From contig JAKQEQ010000073.1 in the NCBI GenBank assembly GCA_029556545.1, forward strand, positions 1-64,000: 64,000 nt of DNA, written 5' to 3'. The notes below the pieces were generated by a model. It saw only the letters and a program-made list of their open reading frames with translations. It had not been told where the DNA came from and searched no databases. This stretch comes from Candidatus Hydrogenedentota bacterium (GTDB lineage: Bacteria; Hydrogenedentota; Hydrogenedentia; Hydrogenedentales; JAGMZX01). Position 1 is the first letter of the stretch. Every line of letters begins with the position of its first letter. This document shows, in pieces, positions 11,396 to 24,036 of this stretch. The position numbers and the translations under genes are program-made.

Positions 11396-14300
11396 CTACA
11401 GCAGTGCCTTCGGGATGAACGCGATCGACGTCTGCATCGGATACGCGCAGGTACAGCCCGAACTGGACTCGGGGATCATAATGATGCCGCCCGCCGGGAT
11501 GATATTGAGCCAGCAGCCGGGCCGGGACACCACCGTGAGCGGGATGCCTTCCGTCTCGGCGGTGTCGATGGGATACATCCGCGGGTTGCTGCCCCGTCCG
11601 TAAAGATAATGGGCCGACCCGGTCAGGCCGCCGCAGCCGTGGCCGCCGCGGTACAGGATGTAGTCCTTCCGCGTGCCCGAGCGCAGGTCGAAGGCGTAAG
11701 GACGGGCGAAGATGGCCCCCTGGTTGATGACGGGGTGTTGCCATTGTTCGCCGTGACTGCCCCCGACTTCGGCGAAGTCCATGCAGCGGACGTCCATGGC
11801 GCGGAAGGGCGTTTGCCACAGGTCCGCGCCAGTGGCCATGTCGAAAGCGAACAGCCCGTAATAGACCTTGTTCCCGTCGTTATAAGATCCGGACGCGAGA
11901 AGGACGCCGTCGTCGCCGTTCAGGTACATGATGTGCTGAAACGGCAGCGTGACGGGCCGCTCCCACAGTTTGTGGCCGGCTTCAATATCGAGGGCGATCA
12001 GATAGGTTTCCTCTTCGAGAAACTGCTTGATCCCGAGGCGTCCGTTCTTGTTGGCGCGCGCCTTCTTGTTGCGGCTCTCGACGAAATAGATGCGCCCCTC
12101 GGCGATCGTGACGGCGTCGTTCATGAGGATGCCGTCCTGATAACGCCAGCAAAGGCCGCCGTCGTGGCGGTCCAGACAGAACAGGTACTTGCTGATGATG
12201 ACCGGCCTGAAATCGCCTTCGAGAATGTTGACGGTCATCTTCGACATTTGATCGAAGGACGCGCCCGCCGCCTGCCCCGTGCCGATAAGCAGCGAATCCA
12301 CGCTGTTGAGATAACCCCAGTCATGCGTCGCATCGTCCGGCTGCGGCGCGAGGAAGGTATTCACTTGCTCCCCGGTCGCGGGGTCGAGCACCCAACACTC
12401 GTTTCGCCGCGCGATATAGAGCGCGTCGTCGGTCAGCAGTTGATGGCCGCCGGTCTTGAGGCTGCCGACGCGCCGCGATTCCGGCGCCTCGCCCCGCCAG
12501 AGCAGCGTTCCGTTATACGGGTCCACCGCAAGGACGAGATTGTCGCCGGGCACGAAGAGCCGGCCATTCTTGAACAGCGAAGACATGGGGCGATGGTGGC
12601 GGTCGATCATATCTCGCGGGCCCGGTTCGCCAAACCACAGGACATCGACCGGGCCACGCAGCGGGTCGCCGCTGCACGCCGTGTGCGCCGCGTTCGCGTA
12701 CAGTTGCGTCCATTCCCCGGCGTCCGGCAGCGGACCCCGCTCGATGTGCGCCCAGAAGCCGTTCTCCGTGTCCACGGCGAATCCGGCAAAGCCCGCACCC
12801 CATCCTTCGAGCGCCGCCGCGTCCAGGGCCGCTGGCGCGCCGATGCAGGCGATGCCGCCGTAGGGGCGCAGTACGCGAAACACCTCCTCGGGCGGCCAGG
12901 AAGGCATGTCGCCGCGAATCGCGCCATCCGAAACCACGAGATTCGCCATGTACGTCGTGAACGGAAGCGTGTCCTCCGTCCAGTGCCGCACCGCGACCCG
13001 CACGCCGTACAACCCGGCGGCGTCGAGGGCCGCGCGGGCGCGCGCGACGTTGGCGGGATCGCGATCGATCCCGACGATCTTGAGTTGCGTCCGCCGCGCC
13101 AGTTCATAGGCGAGGCGACCCTCGCCACAGTCAAGGACGACACAATAGCCCTGCGCGATCCCGCCTCGCCGCAGTATTTCTTCAGCCGCCGCCGCATACG
13201 TTGCGCCATCGGAACTGTCCGCATAAGGGGAAGCAGGGTGTTCCTTTCGCACTACCCGATCGCCTTCGGGCGGTGTCGGCGCGAAACAATGTATCGTGCC
13301 CCGGTCCGTGCTCACATACAGGCGTCCGTCGGCGAACGCGAGGCCGTAGGCGCGCCCCGCAACCTCCGCCCGCCAGACGAGACCCCCGTCCTCCGTGCTG
13401 AACGCCGCCACGTGATCGTCGCCGCCCGCAAAAAGTACGTCCCCGGCAAGTATGAGTTCGTACGGCGCGGCGTGGGGCGTCTCCCACAAATAGCAGGCGC
13501 GCATCGCGTCCGCCAGTTCGGCCCGCCGCGCCTCGATGCCGTCGAGTTCCTGCTGCAACGCCGAATCATTGTTTCCCGTCGCCTTCAGTTGCTTCTCGAC
13601 GTCCTTGGCGCGCTGCGTTTCCCGCGTGTATTCACGCCCAAGCTCCAGGAACCGGGGCCGGTCCAGCGCCCGCAGGCCGGTCGCCGACTGGATGTACGAT
13701 CTCGGACCGTGAATGACGAGGCGAAGCCCCTCGGCGGTGGCGATCGTCTCCGCGGTTTGCGCATCCGCGAAGCGCACCGTCTCGACTTCGCGAGTACCCG
13801 GCCCCACCGCGACGGTGTCCTCCATGACCAGGGCGAAGGGACCGCCGCCGCTTCCCAGCGCGCCCAACGCCGCGCCCGAGTCCCGGGCGAACACCGCCGG
13901 GTTCGTGCGTCCCGTGGGCGCGAACAAGCGCCCCGGCGAAGCCGCGAGATAGCCTTGCGGCGAAGTGTTGTCCGTCGGCAGCCGCCAGACCGCCGCGGCG
14001 CTCGCCGCGTCGAGGGCGCAACGGTACACCGCCTGCTCCGGGAACAGCCCCGCGCAGTAATACGCCGTGCCGTCGTCCACCAGCACGCCCGTGCGCACCG
14101 GAAGCGCCGAAATGACGCGGCCATTGCCCGGAAGCCAGCGGTCGGAGTGGGAGGGGCGGTCCTTCCAGAGGACCGCGCCGTCCTGCGCGGCCAGACAGTA
14201 CGCCCAGCCGTCGTCCGATCCGAAATACGCCCTGCCCTCCGCCACGGTGGGCGCAAGCCGCACCGGCCCGTCCGCGAAAATCGTCCACTGCACGTTCCCC

Positions 14301-14686
14301 GTGGCCGCGTCCAGGCAGTACACCTGGTCATCCGCCGAGGACCCGAAAAAGAGCCGTCCCTCCGCGACGGCCACCTGGAATGCCCGGTCATAAGTCGTCA
14401 CCGGACGCAGCTCCCGCACTTCATTCCAGAAGTCCTGCTTCGCGGGCGCGGGCCAAGCGGGCGCAGGCGGATGCGGCGACTCGAAGGTCCACGCCGCGTG
14501 AAGCGGCAGCGTCGGCTGCTCCCGCGTCACCCCGCTGCGCGCCGCGTCATGCCGGTACGTAGGCCAGTCATCCGCCGCGGCGGCCACCGCCAAGAGAGCG
14601 AGAGAGAGACGACCAAGCGCTATTGCAGAGCGATAGCAAATCTGTGGTGAACAGAAGAAAAGTGATTGTCCGTTTCTGTGTTTCAC
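11396..14686 (-). CDS. Secreted PQQ-like beta-propeller protein with an embedded class I methyltransferase-like domain
   Basis: 1096 residues starting at a GTG (14686) that follows AGGTG by seven bases. A signal peptide (LSLALLAVAAAADD) leads into the motif DWPTYRHDAARSG typical of PQQ-propeller secreted proteins. Propeller blades (YCLDAATGNVQW, VYCLDAATG-like, GLVWRAEVAGRAYGLAF) fill residues about 35-500. A Rossmann methyltransferase domain is inserted at about 530-660 (VLDCGEGRLAYELARR motif I, IVGIDRDPANVARAR motif II). Propeller blades resume to the end. Similar fusions occur in Planctomycetes and relatives, but the function is unknown and motif I (DCGEGR) departs from the usual DxGxGxG. 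An exported SAM enzyme would have no obvious methyl donor, so a structural or ligand-binding role is possible. Confidence 0.85.
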   Translation of the reverse strand: MKHRNGQSLFFCSPQICYRSAIALGRLSLALLAVAAAADDWPTYRHDAARSGVTREQPTLPLHAAWTFESPHPPAPAWPAPAKQDFWNEVRELRPVTTYDRAFQVAVAEGRLFFGSSADDQVYCLDAATGNVQWTIFADGPVRLAPTVAEGRAYFGSDDGWAYCLAAQDGAVLWKDRPSHSDRWLPGNGRVISALPVRTGVLVDDGTAYYCAGLFPEQAVYRCALDAASAAAVWRLPTDNTSPQGYLAASPGRLFAPTGRTNPAVFARDSGAALGALGSGGGPFALVMEDTVAVGPGTREVETVRFADAQTAETIATAEGLRLVIHGPRSYIQSATGLRALDRPRFLELGREYTRETQRAKDVEKQLKATGNNDSALQQELDGIEARRAELADAMRACYLWETPHAAPYELILAGDVLFAGGDDHVAAFSTEDGGLVWRAEVAGRAYGLAFADGRLYVSTDRGTIHCFAPTPPEGDRVVRKEHPASPYADSSDGATYAAAAEEILRRGGIAQGYCVVLDCGEGRLAYELARRTQLKIVGIDRDPANVARARAALDAAGLYGVRVAVRHWTEDTLPFTTYMANLVVSDGAIRGDMPSWPPEEVFRVLRPYGGIACIGAPAALDAAALEGWGAGFAGFAVDTENGFWAHIERGPLPDAGEWTQLYANAAHTACSGDPLRGPVDVLWFGEPGPRDMIDRHHRPMSSLFKNGRLFVPGDNLVLAVDPYNGTLLWRGEAPESRRVGSLKTGGHQLLTDDALYIARRNECWVLDPATGEQVNTFLAPQPDDATHDWGYLNSVDSLLIGTGQAAGASFDQMSKMTVNILEGDFRPVIISKYLFCLDRHDGGLCWRYQDGILMNDAVTIAEGRIYFVESRNKKARANKNGRLGIKQFLEEETYLIALDIEAGHKLWERPVTLPFQHIMYLNGDDGVLLASGSYNDGNKVYYGLFAFDMATGADLWQTPFRAMDVRCMDFAEVGGSHGEQWQHPVINQGAIFARPYAFDLRSGTRKDYILYRGGHGCGGLTGSAHYLYGRGSNPRMYPIDTAETEGIPLTVVSRPGCWLNIIPAGGIIMIPESSSGCTCAYPMQTSIAFIPKALL

Positions 14687-15158: not shown

Positions 15159-16652
15159 TCATCCTTGACAATCCATGACCCACCGCGTCAGGAGCCGGAC
15201 GCCGTAGCCGGTGGCGTGTTTCGGGTCGAGATACGAAATGTTCTTCACACCCCACGCGGTCCCGGCGATATCGAGGTGCGCCCACGGCGTCTTCCCCACG
15301 AATTTCTCAAGGAACGCGCCGCCGACAATGGTCCCCGCCTCCTTGGGCGGGCCGATATTGCACAGGTCCGCGTGCGTCCCCTTCGTCAACTCGCGGTAGT
15401 CGTCCCACAGCGGCAGCCGCCAGATGCGCTCCCCGGCGGCGCTTGCCGCGCTTTCGAGAGCCGCATGCAGCGCATCGCTGTTCGATAGGACGCCCGCCGC
15501 ATAATGGCCCAGCGCGATGACGCACGCCCCTGTGAGCGTGGCCACGTCGACGACGGCTTTCGGGCGAAAACGCTTGACGGTGTAAGCGAGCGCGTCGGCC
15601 AGGATAAGCCGGCCCTCGGCATCGGTGTTGTGCACTTCGATGGTCACGCCGTTCGACGCCGTAACGATGTCGCCGGGCGTCTGCGCGGCGGGGCCGACCT
15701 TGTTCTCGACAGCGGGTACGACGCACACGACGTTCAGCCGCGGGCGCAGTTGCGCGACGGCGAGCATCGTGCAGAGCGCCGCCGCCGCGCCGCACATGTC
15801 GTACTTCATCTCGTGCATGGCTTCCGGCGGCTTGAGCGAGACGCCGCCCGTGTCGAAGGTGACGCCCTTGCCCACGATGGCGACGGTCCGCGTCGCCCCG
15901 GGCGGCGTGTACCGAAGCACGATGAGGCGAGGCGGCTCGTCGCTGCCGCGCGCGACGCCGAGCAGCGCGTTCATGCCCAGTCGGCGCATGTCTTCCTCGT
16001 CGAGGACCTCGCACGCGCAGTGCGGTTCCTTCGCCACGCCGATCGCGAAGGCGGCCAACGCCGTGGGCGTCATGTCGTTCGCGGGCGTGTTCGCCAAGTT
16101 GCGCGCCGCGTTCGCGCTCAATGCGACCACCGCGGCGTATTCGCAGCGCCTACGGACGCGCGGTACGTCGCCGCTCGCGCCCACGACGACCGTTACGGCG
16201 AGGACACGGCTCTTCGGCGCGTCCTTCTCGTCCGGCTTCTTGTAAGCGTCGAATTCATAGCCGCCGAGGATCAGCCCCTCGACGAACGCCTCGACCGGCA
16301 ACTGGCGCTGCCCGGAAACGTCGACCACAACATGCTCGACCCGCTGCTGCCGCAGGATCGCGCAGGCGCTGCCCGCAGTGCGACGGAGCACCTCCGCGTC
16401 AACGCCCCGTCCCTTCCCGAGACCCGCGACGAGTACGCCGTCGTGCCTGCCGCCCGGCGTGGGCAGGTAATAGACCTCGCGCGCCTTTCCCGTGAGCACG
16501 CCTTGTTCCGCCAAGGCGCGCAGGGCGCGCCGCGCGACCGGATCGAGGAGGGAACCGTCCGGCGCGGCGCCGTTCTCGAACATGGGGAGGACCAGGCACG
16601 CCCGGCCCGGCGCCTTGCGCAATCCGCGACGCTGCACTACCTCAACACGCAT
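15159..16652 (-). CDS. pepA: Leucyl aminopeptidase (M17)
   Basis: Cytosolic dinuclear-metal aminopeptidase that removes N-terminal residues from peptides; some M17 enzymes also bind DNA. 497 residues, normal size. Metal and catalytic motifs are intact: VGKGVTFDTGGVSLKP (catalytic Lys and metal Asp), MKYDMCGAAA (metal Asp), and the hallmark NTDAEGRLILADALAY with catalytic Arg. The ATG at 16652 follows AGGAAGGA. The downstream membrane-protein gene is in the same orientation, 35 bases upstream in transcription order, so they may be co-transcribed. Confidence 0.95.
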   Translation of the reverse strand: MRVEVVQRRGLRKAPGRACLVLPMFENGAAPDGSLLDPVARRALRALAEQGVLTGKAREVYYLPTPGGRHDGVLVAGLGKGRGVDAEVLRRTAGSACAILRQQRVEHVVVDVSGQRQLPVEAFVEGLILGGYEFDAYKKPDEKDAPKSRVLAVTVVVGASGDVPRVRRRCEYAAVVALSANAARNLANTPANDMTPTALAAFAIGVAKEPHCACEVLDEEDMRRLGMNALLGVARGSDEPPRLIVLRYTPPGATRTVAIVGKGVTFDTGGVSLKPPEAMHEMKYDMCGAAAALCTMLAVAQLRPRLNVVCVVPAVENKVGPAAQTPGDIVTASNGVTIEVHNTDAEGRLILADALAYTVKRFRPKAVVDVATLTGACVIALGHYAAGVLSNSDALHAALESAASAAGERIWRLPLWDDYRELTKGTHADLCNIGPPKEAGTIVGGAFLEKFVGKTPWAHLDIAGTAWGVKNISYLDPKHATGYGVRLLTRWVMDCQG

Positions 16653-17257: not shown

Positions 17258-18688
17258 ATGAACACATTCAGTTTTGAACAATTCGACGTGGCGGACGCGA
17301 ACCGCGCGGCTTATGAGACATGCCGCGACGTGGCGGCGCTTCGATACGCGGGGCCGCGCCCGGTGTTGTTGCTCGGTCCGGAGCAAAGCGGAAAGACCCA
17401 TCTGCTTTGGGCCATCGTGAAGCGGGTCCGCGCCGGCGCGGCCCAGGCAAGTCTCGCGCTCGTCATGGCCCATGAGTTCCCCGAGAAGGTGCGCGCGCTC
17501 GTGAAGGATGCTTCTCCGATCCGCGGCAAGCCCGCGGTTTTTCTCGTGGATGAGCTCGACCAATTTCAGGAAAATGCGGCCGACCTCGAGGCCGTGACGC
17601 GGCTCTTTCTCGAATACGGCCACCAGGTGGTGATCGCGAGCAGCGTCCATCCAGACCGCCTGGCGTCGCTCAGTCGGGAGTTCCGAAGCCTGCTGCACGC
17701 CGGGCGCATCATCGAGATTGAGCCGCGCTGGAGTGTGTCCGCGGCGGCGGCTTCCGAACCCGGCGAAGCCGATGGCGCGGCGCTTGCAGAGGCTCGGGCG
17801 ACTTTGGAGCGTGCGCAACAAGAGAACGACGTGCAACGGCGCGAGATTGCGCAGTTGCGCGCCATTGCCGAGGCATTGGGAAAGGAGCGTGACACCCTCG
17901 AAGCGAAACTGGCCGAAAAAGCGAGGTCGGGGGGGGAACTGGTGGAATTGCGGGAACGTGCCTCGGCTGCCGAGGCTGAGCGTGACCGGATCGCGGCGGC
18001 GTTGAGCGAATTGCGCGAGGAGCTTGCCGCGCGGGAGGCGGCCGCGGAGGAACATGCGAAGGCGCTGGCCGTTTGCGAGGCGGAACGCGCCGCTGCCGTC
18101 GAACAGCGGGACCTGATCGAGAAGCAACTCAGCGAGGCGTGGCAGCGCGCGGCCAAGGTGGACCGGCTACGCGAACTGTTGGCGGAGGCGCGCGAGGACG
18201 CGGCCGCCGCGTTCGCGCAGCAGGCGCGGCTGCAGGGCGAGGTGGGGGCACTGAAGTTCGCGGTCGAGGAATTGGAATCGGTGCGGGCGGAGCGGGACGC
18301 GGCGCGCGAATTCGCTGCGCAGTTGGAGGCGCGCGGGCGGGAGGCGCTTGATCGCTTCAACGCATTGCGGGGGATGTGGTTGGCGTCCTTTTCCGCGCTG
18401 CGCGAGCGCTTGGCCCGGACCGATGACAGCGGGGGAGAGGCGTGGTCGGGACTGCCGGGAGACGACGATTTTGCGTCGGAGATGATGGAAGAGGCGCGGG
18501 CCGCGCAGGGACGACTTCAGGTCGCGTTAGATGCCGCCCAGGCCCGCTTGCGCGCCGTCGAGGCGGAAATCGAGGCGCTGCGCCAGGAGCGCATCGAGCA
18601 GAACGCGGTAATTGAAGCCCTTCGCGACGCCGCCGCGCGTGCGGAAGACGGTTCGAGCCACGGGCAGGACGATCGCGACGATGGCTGA
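17258..18688 (+). CDS. DnaA/Hda-like AAA+ ATPase fused to a long coiled coil
   Basis: 476 residues. The first 160 match DnaA domain III: FSFEQFDVADANRAAY (compare YTFDNFVVGxSNRxAY), Walker A GPEQSGKTHLLWAI near residue 42, Walker B VFLVDELDQF near 97, and a sensor-like VVIASSVHPDRL followed by SREFRSLLHAGRIIEIEP. The helical lid and DNA-binding domain IV of DnaA are absent. Instead, residues about 175-460 are an Ala/Glu/Arg-rich heptad coiled coil (ELAAREAAAEEHAKALAVCE). Start ATG at 17258 after GGAAGG. This combination is neither DnaA (450 aa, HTH end) nor Hda (about 230 aa, no tail). The HD gene downstream overlaps its last codons. A role as a tethered or oligomeric regulator of replication or chromosome organisation is inference only. 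Confidence 0.75.
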   Translation: MNTFSFEQFDVADANRAAYETCRDVAALRYAGPRPVLLLGPEQSGKTHLLWAIVKRVRAGAAQASLALVMAHEFPEKVRALVKDASPIRGKPAVFLVDELDQFQENAADLEAVTRLFLEYGHQVVIASSVHPDRLASLSREFRSLLHAGRIIEIEPRWSVSAAAASEPGEADGAALAEARATLERAQQENDVQRREIAQLRAIAEALGKERDTLEAKLAEKARSGGELVELRERASAAEAERDRIAAALSELREELAAREAAAEEHAKALAVCEAERAAAVEQRDLIEKQLSEAWQRAAKVDRLRELLAEAREDAAAAFAQQARLQGEVGALKFAVEELESVRAERDAAREFAAQLEARGREALDRFNALRGMWLASFSALRERLARTDDSGGEAWSGLPGDDDFASEMMEEARAAQGRLQVALDAAQARLRAVEAEIEALRQERIEQNAVIEALRDAAARAEDGSSHGQDDRDDG

Positions 18689-19289
18689 CCAATCGCCCGG
18701 GCATCCGGAGTTTCCGGAGCAATTGATCGCGCTCTTTGAGGCTGTACACCCGCTGGACCGCGTGGCGCGCGCCGGGTACGTCCTTCGCGGCGTCGCCGAA
18801 CCCGAGTCGGTGGCCGCGCATAGTCACTTTGTCGCGTTGATGGCCCTTCTCTTCCTCGAAGAATATCCCGACTGCTGGGACCGCGAGAAAGTGCTGGCCA
18901 TGGCGCTCATCCATGACCTTGCCGAAGCGCGTCTCATGGACATCCCCATGCCCGCCGCCGACGCGCATCTGCGCGCGGCTAAGGATGCGGCGGAGCAGAC
19001 CATCATTGAGGACCTATTGCGCGGCTCTTTTGAGCACCTGACCGCGTTGCACCAGGAGTTTATCGAGGGACGCACGCCGGAAGCGCGGCTGCTGCGCGGC
19101 CTCGACAAGGCGCAGATGATGATCAAGGTCTTCTGCTACCAGCGCGAGCATCGGGGAAATCTCGAGGAGTTCTGGGAGAACCCGCGCAACTTCGAGGATT
19201 ACGGCGTCGAGCCCGTGTCCGCCTTATTCGATACGATCTGCGCCCGGGCCGGGCGCCCCCGCCCCGGAGCGCGTCCCATGAGTTGTTGA
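18681..19289 (+). CDS. HD-domain phosphohydrolase (YfbR/HDDC2-like 5'-deoxynucleotidase)
   Basis: 202 residues starting at an ATG that overlaps the end of the AAA+ gene by eight bases (ATGGCTGA), so translation is likely coupled. The metal ligands of the HD family are in order: SVAAHSHFVALMA (His), MALIHDLAEA (HD), LDKAQMMIKVF (Asp). Length and arrangement fit HDDC2/YfbR enzymes that dephosphorylate deoxynucleoside 5'-monophosphates. Its pairing with a DnaA-like ATPase would join dNTP-pool control to a replication-type protein; that link is inferred from gene order. Confidence 0.82.
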   Translation: MADQSPGHPEFPEQLIALFEAVHPLDRVARAGYVLRGVAEPESVAAHSHFVALMALLFLEEYPDCWDREKVLAMALIHDLAEARLMDIPMPAADAHLRAAKDAAEQTIIEDLLRGSFEHLTALHQEFIEGRTPEARLLRGLDKAQMMIKVFCYQREHRGNLEEFWENPRNFEDYGVEPVSALFDTICARAGRPRPGARPMSC

Positions 19290-21900: not shown

Positions 21901-24036
21901 TCAGGGGCCCATGTCGTGAACGCTATCCACGGCGAAGTCTCGACCGGCGCCGTGGCATACCGCGCAGGTCTCTACGCCCGCCGCGGCGTCCGCGTTCAGC
22001 ATTGCGTGGAAGTTGGCGAGCACGCTGTCGTGACACGACGTGCATGCCGCCCGTTCCGGCAGCACTTCGGTAACGGCCGTCCCGTTGTCCACCACGGTCG
22101 AGAGCGCGTCGGCGGGCAGCGGCACGTCGTAGGTGCCGGGCAGGTGGCACATCTCGCACTCGCGCCGGTCACCGGGGAACCGCACGTGCGTGAAGTCATG
22201 CGCGACGTTGCCATAACCGTAAACCGTGTACGGTCCGCTCAGTTCCTCGCCCGTGTGAATCTTATGGATCATCTGCTTGAAGTGGATGGTCGCCGTATCC
22301 GCGAGAGCGCCCTCAGGCCGCCGAGCAATGTCCGTGTTGTTTGGATTGTGGCAGAAGAGGCAGAGGTCCACGCCGAAACGCTGTGAGCCATGCGCCCGGA
22401 TTTCACCGTGACAGGCGTTGCACTTTGCCTCGTCCACAATGGCGCGGCGCGGCTTCGGCGCGCTGCCGTCGAGCGTGAAGAACGTCAGGCCGTTCGATGA
22501 CGTGCCCTGGGTGACGTTGGCGTCCCCGAACGCAAAGGTCCGGCGGCCTTCCATCGCCACGGCGAAGGTGTCGCCAGTGCCGACCGGCAGTTTGGCGCGA
22601 TAGGTGTATACGTAGGTGCCGGTGGGGCTCGCGTTCGTGTTCAACGTGCCGTTCGGGCCGCCGCCGCCCTGGATCGCCTCGCGGATATACGTTTCATACT
22701 CGGGGGCAGGGTAGGCCACCAGCGTCGAAACCGAACTGAGGTCGGCCAGCGCGGTCACCGGGCTGCCGTCGCCGTTCACGGCGGTGAAGGTGATTTGCAC
22801 GGTGCCGTCCGCGGGAATCGCGCTCACGTCGACGATATCCAGCGCCAGCCCGGGCGCTTCCTCGCTTTGCGTCGGGATGCGGTGGACGGTAGTAACGGCC
22901 GCGACGCCCGGCTCGTCCGGCGTGTGGCAGACCGCGCATTGGGTATCGGTCGGCTGATCGAAGTCGAACGGGTGGTTTTGGAAGCCTTCCGGCGTCGCGG
23001 TGGGATTACCGAACCACGTGCGGTCGTGGCACGAGCCGCAGCCGGCGCGCGTGGGCAGCATCTTGTACACGTCCGCGTGCGGCGCGTTCTGGTGGCACAC
23101 GGTGCAATTGCGGATATCCTGCGGGAAGACAACGGTCGAGTAGTCGTGGACGCTGCCGCCGAAGCCGATGATCTGGTACGGGTGGCCGTCCTCGACGCTG
23201 GGCAGTCCTTCGCCCATGTGAATCTTGTGGATGAGCACCGGCATATCGACCGAGTTGCCGGTGTCAGGATCGACGCTCTGCTCGTTGTGGCAGAGGATGC
23301 ACAATTGAATCTCGCGGCGGACGTCGCCGTGCAGCCCGAGCCGCGTGTGGCAGGCGTTACACGTTTCGGTATTGACGATTTCTCGCGTCTTGGCCACCGT
23401 GCCGCCGTCGGGCCGGAACGTGTATATCGGGTTGGCTATGTAACTTTTTCCGTCCACGATATACGTCCGGCGGAACTGGCCGCCCAACTGGTGGGTAGCG
23501 TCCCGGGCGTAGCCGGCGGGGAGCGCGGTCGCGAACTTGTACACGAAGGAGCCGTCCGGCTGCTGCGTGGTCCCGTTCAGGCGCCCGCCGTCGTAGGTCG
23601 CCTGACCGTTGCCGGACAGGATGTAGTTGACATAGCGGGGACTCGCCACGCTCTTGCCCGCGCCCGAGCCTTCGAGGTAGGCCAAGGTGAATCGCAGATC
23701 GCTGAACTCGGCCTTGTTGACGGTATTGCCCCGGTTGTCCCGCGCGCGGAACCGCACTTCGGGGCGCAAGTCGGCGGGCACGGTCACGCTATCTATAGTG
23801 ATGTCGAGGCCGGCATCCCAGGCAACGCCCGTGCCTGGAGGTCCCTGGGGCCCTTCGGGTCCTTCGGGCCCTTCCGGTCCCTGGGGCCCTTCCGGACCTT
23901 CGGGGCCTTGAGGCCCGGTCGGCCCCTGAGGTCCGGGACATCCGATGAGCAACGCCACGCTCATGCAGCACAGCATGAACAGCACGGTCCTCGTCGAAAC
24001 CGCCGCAAGCATCCTTGGTTTACGCCGCTGTGTCAT
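21901..24036 (-). CDS. OmcA/MtrC-type decaheme c-type cytochrome lipoprotein with collagen-like stalk
   Basis: 711 residues. A lipobox (SVALLIGC) ends the signal peptide, followed directly by a 36-residue Gly-Pro-x collagen-like stretch ([17 protein letters not shown]). Ten CxxCH haem motifs follow in two groups of five: CNACH, CILCH, CTVCH, CGSCH, CAVCH and CNACH, CLFCH, CEMCH, CTSCH, CAVCH. Each pentahaem module is preceded by a beta-rich domain, as in outer-membrane decaheme cytochromes (MtrC/OmcA) that pass electrons to extracellular acceptors. The ATG at 24036 follows AAGGG. No mtrA/mtrB-like porin-cytochrome partner is nearby, so the route across the outer membrane is unknown. Confidence 0.92.

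Follow-up and report, generated by a model that had tools for sequence, protein, structure and literature searches.

The locus studied here lies in a 64,000-nt stretch of DNA from a Candidatus Hydrogenedentota bacterium (hereafter the window) and holds two genes and a promoter-like site (Table 1). The first gene encodes a protein in which a DnaA-type core is followed by a coil, and we use T3 as a label for the family with this arrangement. The second gene encodes an HD-domain enzyme and overlaps the end of the T3 gene by 8 bases. Both open reading frames lie where an initial annotation, made from the sequence alone, had placed them. Elsewhere in the window, a 1096-aa frame at 11396-14686 (minus strand) has PQQ-repeat-like sequence with a methyltransferase-like middle (labels by eye), and an M17 leucyl aminopeptidase gene lies near it at 15159-16652. 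A 711-aa frame at 21901-24036 (minus strand) combines collagen-like GPQGPEGP repeats with several CxxCH haem motifs after them, and by eye resembles an outer-membrane multi-haem cytochrome.

Table 1. Features of the T3-HD locus; positions are those of the window.
Feature	Position	Strand	Basis
T3 gene: DnaA-type core plus coiled coil, 476 aa	17258..18688	+	ORF, profiles, model
DnaA domain III-like alpha/beta core without lid, T3 residues 1-157	17258..17728	+	PF00308, VIA-align
Walker A GPEQSGKTHLL, T3 residues 40-50	17375..17407	+	Lys invariant in 52/52 T3 cores
Walker B VFLVDE, T3 residues 94-99	17537..17554	+	Asp98 invariant in 52/52; position 99 variable, D/E in 21/52
Coiled-coil rod, T3 residues 165-465	17750..18652	+	Periodicity and AlphaFold2 helices
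HD-domain phosphohydrolase of the HDDC2/YGK1/YfbR kind, 202 aa	18681..19289	+	Profiles, structure relatives
Predicted metal ligands of the HD enzyme, H47...H78-D79...D142 (first to last)	18819..19106	+	Invariant in 47/47
Sigma-70-like promoter TTGACT-17-TACAAT, beginning 68 nt before the T3 start codon	17190..17218	+	10/12 matches

The first part of T3 matches PF00308 (Bac_DnaA) with an E value of 2.3e-12 and 47.9 bits against a cut-off of 23, and profile A1, which we built from 48 T3 cores, matches B. subtilis DnaA at 5.3e-20. When the AlphaFold2 model of T3 (mean pLDDT 85.8, 25 sequences) was compared by VIA-align, its core corresponded to DnaA domain III minus the lid. Residues 1-157 align with B. 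subtilis DnaA at Z 18.2 (rmsd 3.1, 155 residues aligned) and with Hda at Z 17.1 (rmsd 2.3, 144 aligned). The DnaC and IstB loaders have related AAA cores (Z 12.7-13.5), yet the profile search of the ATPase part ranked DnaA far above IstB and placed T3 in no unrelated family. From VIA-align only matches were counted as evidence; missing hits carried no weight. The N-box (FSFEQF...NRAAY), the THLL-bearing Walker A loop and the Walker B FLVDE are all present as the initial annotation described them, and it is in the N-box, the THLL of Walker A, the first Walker B Asp and the fold (Z about 18) that T3 resembles DnaA domain III (1L8Q, 2HCB, 8BTG). In a MAFFT alignment of T3 cores the N-box Phe is found in 52/52 and the N-box Asn in 51/52, and the Walker A Lys and first Walker B Asp are invariant.

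Other elements of DnaA are missing. T3 has no lid, no domain IV and no domains I-II, and carries a coil instead. The second Walker B acid is kept by a minority of T3 cores (Table 1), a short deletion precedes Walker B, and the sensor-1 Asp is not among the eight commonest residues (51/52 sequences). At the arginine finger (Arg285 position) the same alignment shows Leu in the window T3 and Arg in only 4/52 T3 proteins, so that the finger is lost in 48/52. By comparison, the DnaA of the same genomes (8/8) retains the second Walker B acid, the arginine finger, the sensor-1 Asp and the stretch before Walker B, and the finger position is also Arg in 7/7 DnaA proteins from outside the phylum and in 14/14 members of the MshEN-DnaA family described below. 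In DnaA this arginine is described as contacting the ATP of the neighbouring protomer (PMC5742627). Because the ATP loop is kept and the arginine finger is gone, T3 should, judging from these residues, bind ATP but not build an active DnaA filament alone. Lacking the finger, it cannot act on itself as DnaA does, and it could still receive a finger from another DnaA-fold protein.

T3 scores far below the equivalog models of both DnaA (TIGR00362, 48.6 vs 343.9 bits) and Hda (TIGR03420, 35.9 vs 194.8 bits). A tree of 82 cores gathers T3 into a single clade with support 0.87, apart from the DnaA of the phylum and from the MshEN-DnaA family, with its exact placement uncertain because of the long T3 branch. 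The own genome of the window has five PF00308 matches (DnaA, an MshEN-DnaA protein, the window T3, a T3 paralogue and an IstB-like protein), none of them a candidate Hda. Profiles, equivalog scores, tree and position-by-position residues thus agree with the initial annotation that, as far as sequence can tell, T3 belongs to the DnaA clade and is neither DnaA nor Hda; it is a new form within that clade. Hda retains the lid and the arginine finger. Like T3, Hda (3BOS, 5X06) is a DnaA core without a DNA-binding domain, and some T3 relatives have a clamp-like peptide; the clamp peptide of Hda, however, is described as N-terminal (PMC5742627), whereas T3 begins at the N-box, which starts at residue 4-6 and leaves no space before it for an N-terminal clamp-binding peptide.

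No match to the DnaA C-terminal domain was found in T3, and in the model a helical rod follows residue 165 in place of the domain IV helix-turn-helix, which upholds the earlier statement that a coil has replaced the DNA-binding end. Over residues 165-476 the 3.5-residue hydrophobic periodicity exceeds that of 500/500 shuffles when V/L/I/M/F/W/Y are counted (z 9.1), and is reached by 2/500 shuffles when A and C are counted as well. The AlphaFold2 helices run from 170 to 221, 228 to 391 and 403 to 465 (52, 164 and 63 residues). The coil itself is therefore borne out, while its length is nearer ~300 residues than the 280 first given. Across 51 relatives the rod and tail together vary from 131 to 1412 residues on a core that is constant at about 157, and in seven relatives identity to the window is 28-57% in the rod, 37-74% in the core and 54-74% in the HD enzyme.

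At the C-terminal end, a clamp-like QxxLF peptide lies at most 110 residues from the C-terminus in 8/52 T3 proteins (families f2, f7, f9 and f11), where 0.5 were expected and at most 4 were seen in 2000 shuffles. The independent events are fewer than eight because of shared descent, and one carrier (L077) branches far from the others in the core tree. The peptide is absent from the window T3 and from its one same-genus relative, as it is near the C-terminus in 44/52. The family has ten QxxLF matches, two of them mid-coil. Bacterial clamp peptides are described as following QL(S/D)LF (PMC9690074), and the replicative DnaE carries QTSLFD in 4/4 genomes examined (G000, G002, G007, G021).

Other tail motifs were considered. 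LF alone is not enriched (22/52 vs 22.7 expected), and an EM motif search for a family-wide C-terminal peptide, which used the 39 of 50 tails that were non-redundant, two MshEN paralogues having been taken out beforehand, gave only a generic end-of-coil helix (log-likelihood 200 vs 150-168 in six shuffles) that we did not accept as a motif. Nine T3 proteins (L053, L055, L056, L057, L062, L067, L071, L073, L078) end in -SI, mostly -DPSI or -DHSI; they belong to families other than those of the QxxLF carriers, and the ending looks like a C-terminal docking peptide. The T3 C-termini of family f11 (L058, L059, L066, L070) have a second peptide like YFEALPxDF after the LF motif.

The HD protein matches PF13023 (4.1e-27, 95.5 bits, cut-off 22.5) and the YfbR-like PF12917 (1.2e-9, 38.6 bits, cut-off 25.9), and falls below the YfbR equivalog PRK03826 (18.6 vs 122 bits). 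The solved structures nearest to it are 2CQZ and 1XX7 (archaeal), HDDC2 (human) and YGK1 (yeast), ahead of YfbR, and among phosphatases it is closest to the HDDC2/YGK1 type. The four residues of the H...HD...D metal-ligand motif, as defined in PMC8177086, are intact and invariant (Table 1). The protein shares with HDDC2, PH0347, YGK1 and YfbR this site, the Asp nine residues past the HD histidine (D87) and the fold, and differs from them in the conserved C-terminal tail of the Hydrogenedentota proteins. The structure model was built on an alignment of just 20 rows, has a mean pLDDT of 78.9 and falls below 50 in segment 28-47, and its active-site geometry was set aside. The two family matches and the intact site agree with the earlier assignment to the 5'-deoxynucleotidase kind, and we predict that the enzyme is a dNMP phosphatase, a further member of the HDDC2/YfbR kind.

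T3 was found in 59/68 Hydrogenedentota genomes (profile A1, E 1e-30 or better). In the nine others the best A1 match was 6e-18 to 6e-21, the level of DnaA and its MshEN relative. The HD gene is likewise present in 59/68 genomes at 52% identity or more, four of them having fragments only (61-71%); eight genomes are without it and one (G033) has only a 32% match. Both genes occur together in 51 genomes and are same-strand neighbours in 40 of these. In 37 of the 40 the distance from T3 to the adjoining HD gene, measured up to where the HD alignment begins, is between -10 and 449 nt and does not exceed 152 nt in 36/37; the window, G040 and G043 bring the number to 40. Among the 11 genomes in which the genes are not adjacent, several T3 genes stop at a contig edge and five (G004, G024, G029, G042, G052) are clearly unlinked; in part of family f4 both genes are present and far apart. 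The adjacency spans nine families while the flanks have changed, and when all frames of 60 stretches were clustered no other neighbour was common to most loci. The next two groups were apparently antisense frames of T3 and HD, and later groups cover at most 15 loci. This survey of relatives carries the pair far beyond the strain in which it was first noticed. We conclude that the pair is real and old; its job is a guess. The two genes are not strictly dependent, since each occurs without the other in eight genomes: eight of the nine T3-less genomes keep the HD gene, and eight T3 genomes have no clear HD gene. Two T3 genes occur in G002: one is highly divergent (34% identity) and adjoins the HD gene, the other is long and unlinked. 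A location near dnaA is not general: it was seen in G058, at about 4 kb, and in G047, at about 11 kb, and the intervening genes have no theme.

Outside the phylum, twelve genomes gave DnaA-level matches or none. We also scanned contigs with a single peptide pattern, which gave at least 80 loci. Among the matches listed, L106-L136 and L143 are Hydrogenedentota/Hydrogenedentes except L131 (uncultured bacterium), and L137, labelled Rhodothermaeota, matches G028 (same order) and was counted with Hydrogenedentota. Ten of the 47 other loci among the matches listed were read, and all were by eye DnaA with its C-terminal domain. Absence of T3 outside Hydrogenedentota is thus likely, not proven, as it rests on one pattern scan, these ten readings and the twelve outside genomes.

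The initial annotation had also given the pair a strong promoter. The site found there is a good one (1 site vs 0.3 expected in the region), and most relatives have a similar one. A site with at least 9/12 consensus matches lies within 160 nt upstream of 37/50 T3 genes (base-shuffle mean 2.0, maximum 5), and one with at least 10/12 upstream of 27/50 (shuffle mean 0.3). This set comprised T3 genes with at least 100 nt upstream, and included two MshEN paralogues, both below threshold. We propose that T3 and HD make up an operon of two genes and would be co-transcribed from a sigma-70 promoter of their own.

Taken together, these features make T3 a probable ATP-binding anchor carried on a rod. 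The best explanation that we can offer for the locus, and we offer it tentatively, is that this DnaA-derived, ATP-gated anchor is a replication controller made together with a dNMP phosphatase. On this view T3 would be an ATP-binding module of DnaA descent that no longer binds origins or stimulates its own hydrolysis. In its ATP-bound form the core may dock on the end of another DnaA-fold protein, which we propose because it offers an ATP site and no arginine finger. The rod would dimerise, and the C-terminal end, clamp-like in several sister lineages, may keep the complex at the replication machinery. Translated from the same mRNA, the HD enzyme would dephosphorylate dNMPs at that site or during the same growth state. 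T3 might then act somewhat like YabA or Hda, coupled by co-production to the phosphatase. YabA is described as a helical oligomer that bridges replication partners (PMC4705661), as proposed here for T3, a likeness by description only; YabA as described has a C-terminal domain that binds zinc, and it lacks an AAA core. Replication control by the T3 family is plausible. The link between replication control and nucleotide pools suggested by the initial annotation is conjectural, its only hint in the sequence being the QxxLF tail that the window protein is missing. We consider it unlikely that T3 is a hydrolysis-poor ATP switch on a rod that caps DnaA, reaches the sliding clamp and is operon-coupled to the dNMP phosphatase, with initiation and nucleotide supply set as one unit; if true, Hydrogenedentota would have a replication controller that resembles none of Hda, YabA and SeqA.

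Several relatives of T3 contain MshEN, which was identified by profile in the own genome. The MshEN-DnaA protein has an N-terminal MshEN domain and a DnaA core with arginine finger and lid, without domain IV (L207:6655-9039, minus strand, G000 contig C100; also L194, L195, L196, L198 and L203); it is a DnaA-type ATPase in an apparent type IV pilus motor operon. A PilT-like gene follows the PilB-like gene in the own genome and at 3/5 other loci (Pil labels by eye). The genus-level T3 paralogue (L095:3907-6339, plus strand; L096:2049-4472, minus strand) is a frame of about 810 aa with a DnaA core, a long coil and a C-terminal MshEN. At L101:4671-6131 and L104:4963-6402 (minus strand), in G052 and G064, a distance of 31-82 nt separates an MshEN-HDOD gene from the HD gene downstream of it.

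These relatives bear on the main rival to the controller reading, namely that T3 serves cell polarity or type IV pili as a scaffold, in which the core is an ATP-dependent docking module, the rod positions partners and the HD protein is a passenger or a signalling-nucleotide hydrolase. That a T3 paralogue from the same genus ends in MshEN (5.3e-18 and 1.7e-13) speaks against a replication controller and points to pili or c-di-GMP. In the own genome and at 5/5 other loci examined, the gene right after that of the MshEN-DnaA protein is PilB-like, and in G052 and G064 it is an MshEN-HDOD gene instead of T3 that the HD gene follows. The T3 clade is, however, separate from the MshEN-DnaA clade, and no pilus gene was recognised as a common neighbour of the T3-HD pair. 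Moreover, MshEN occurs in 15 copies in the own genome, so that fusions with it are not rare and the link is a moderate hint only. On balance we think a pilus or polarity role rather unlikely. We judge much the same of co-expression alone, in which the two would be housekeeping genes sharing a promoter while T3 is a structural protein of nucleoid or cytoplasm and HD an ordinary dNMP phosphatase, the two never in physical contact. The genomes that have one gene without the other, and the members of family f4 that keep the two far apart, are consistent with this; adjacency across nine families despite changed flanks argues against it.

A DNA organiser like SMC or MukB, with the AAA core as its ATP head, would also combine a long rod with a nucleotide-binding head, and the coil weakly matches SMC, Rad50 and JetC models. 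These matches are confined to the coil and far below cut-off (SMC 17.8 vs 567 bits), and the head is an AAA core that is N-terminal only, with no second head half. The SMC-like scaffold of the initial annotation therefore finds no support as kinship, and we regard such a function as improbable. HD dNTP hydrolases act in defence elsewhere, and the HD protein weakly matches a phage dATP triphosphohydrolase model (3.7e-6), but an anti-phage system that depletes nucleotides, with the ATPase as sensor and HD as effector, is very improbable given that PADLOC returned nothing credible (for the ATPase 8.7e-5 at best, and no match to the HD protein) and that the pair sits in most genomes of the phylum behind a housekeeping-type promoter, unlike a mobile defence system. 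An origin in phage was rejected as well: PHROGs gave weak HD matches only, and 0.0096 for the T3 core.

In the literature consulted we found no description of such a DnaA-core-plus-coil protein, and no replication biology for Hydrogenedentota turned up. T3 shows the ATP-binding core of DnaA freed from DNA, rebuilt as the head of a rod and retained by most of a phylum that has been little studied. Its steady pairing with a dNMP-phosphatase-like enzyme connects a DnaA relative with nucleotide supply directly and in a form that can be tested. If T3 binds DnaA or the clamp, it would represent a new architecture among the controllers of DnaA; binding to pilus motors would instead show that DnaA folds have been reused outside replication.
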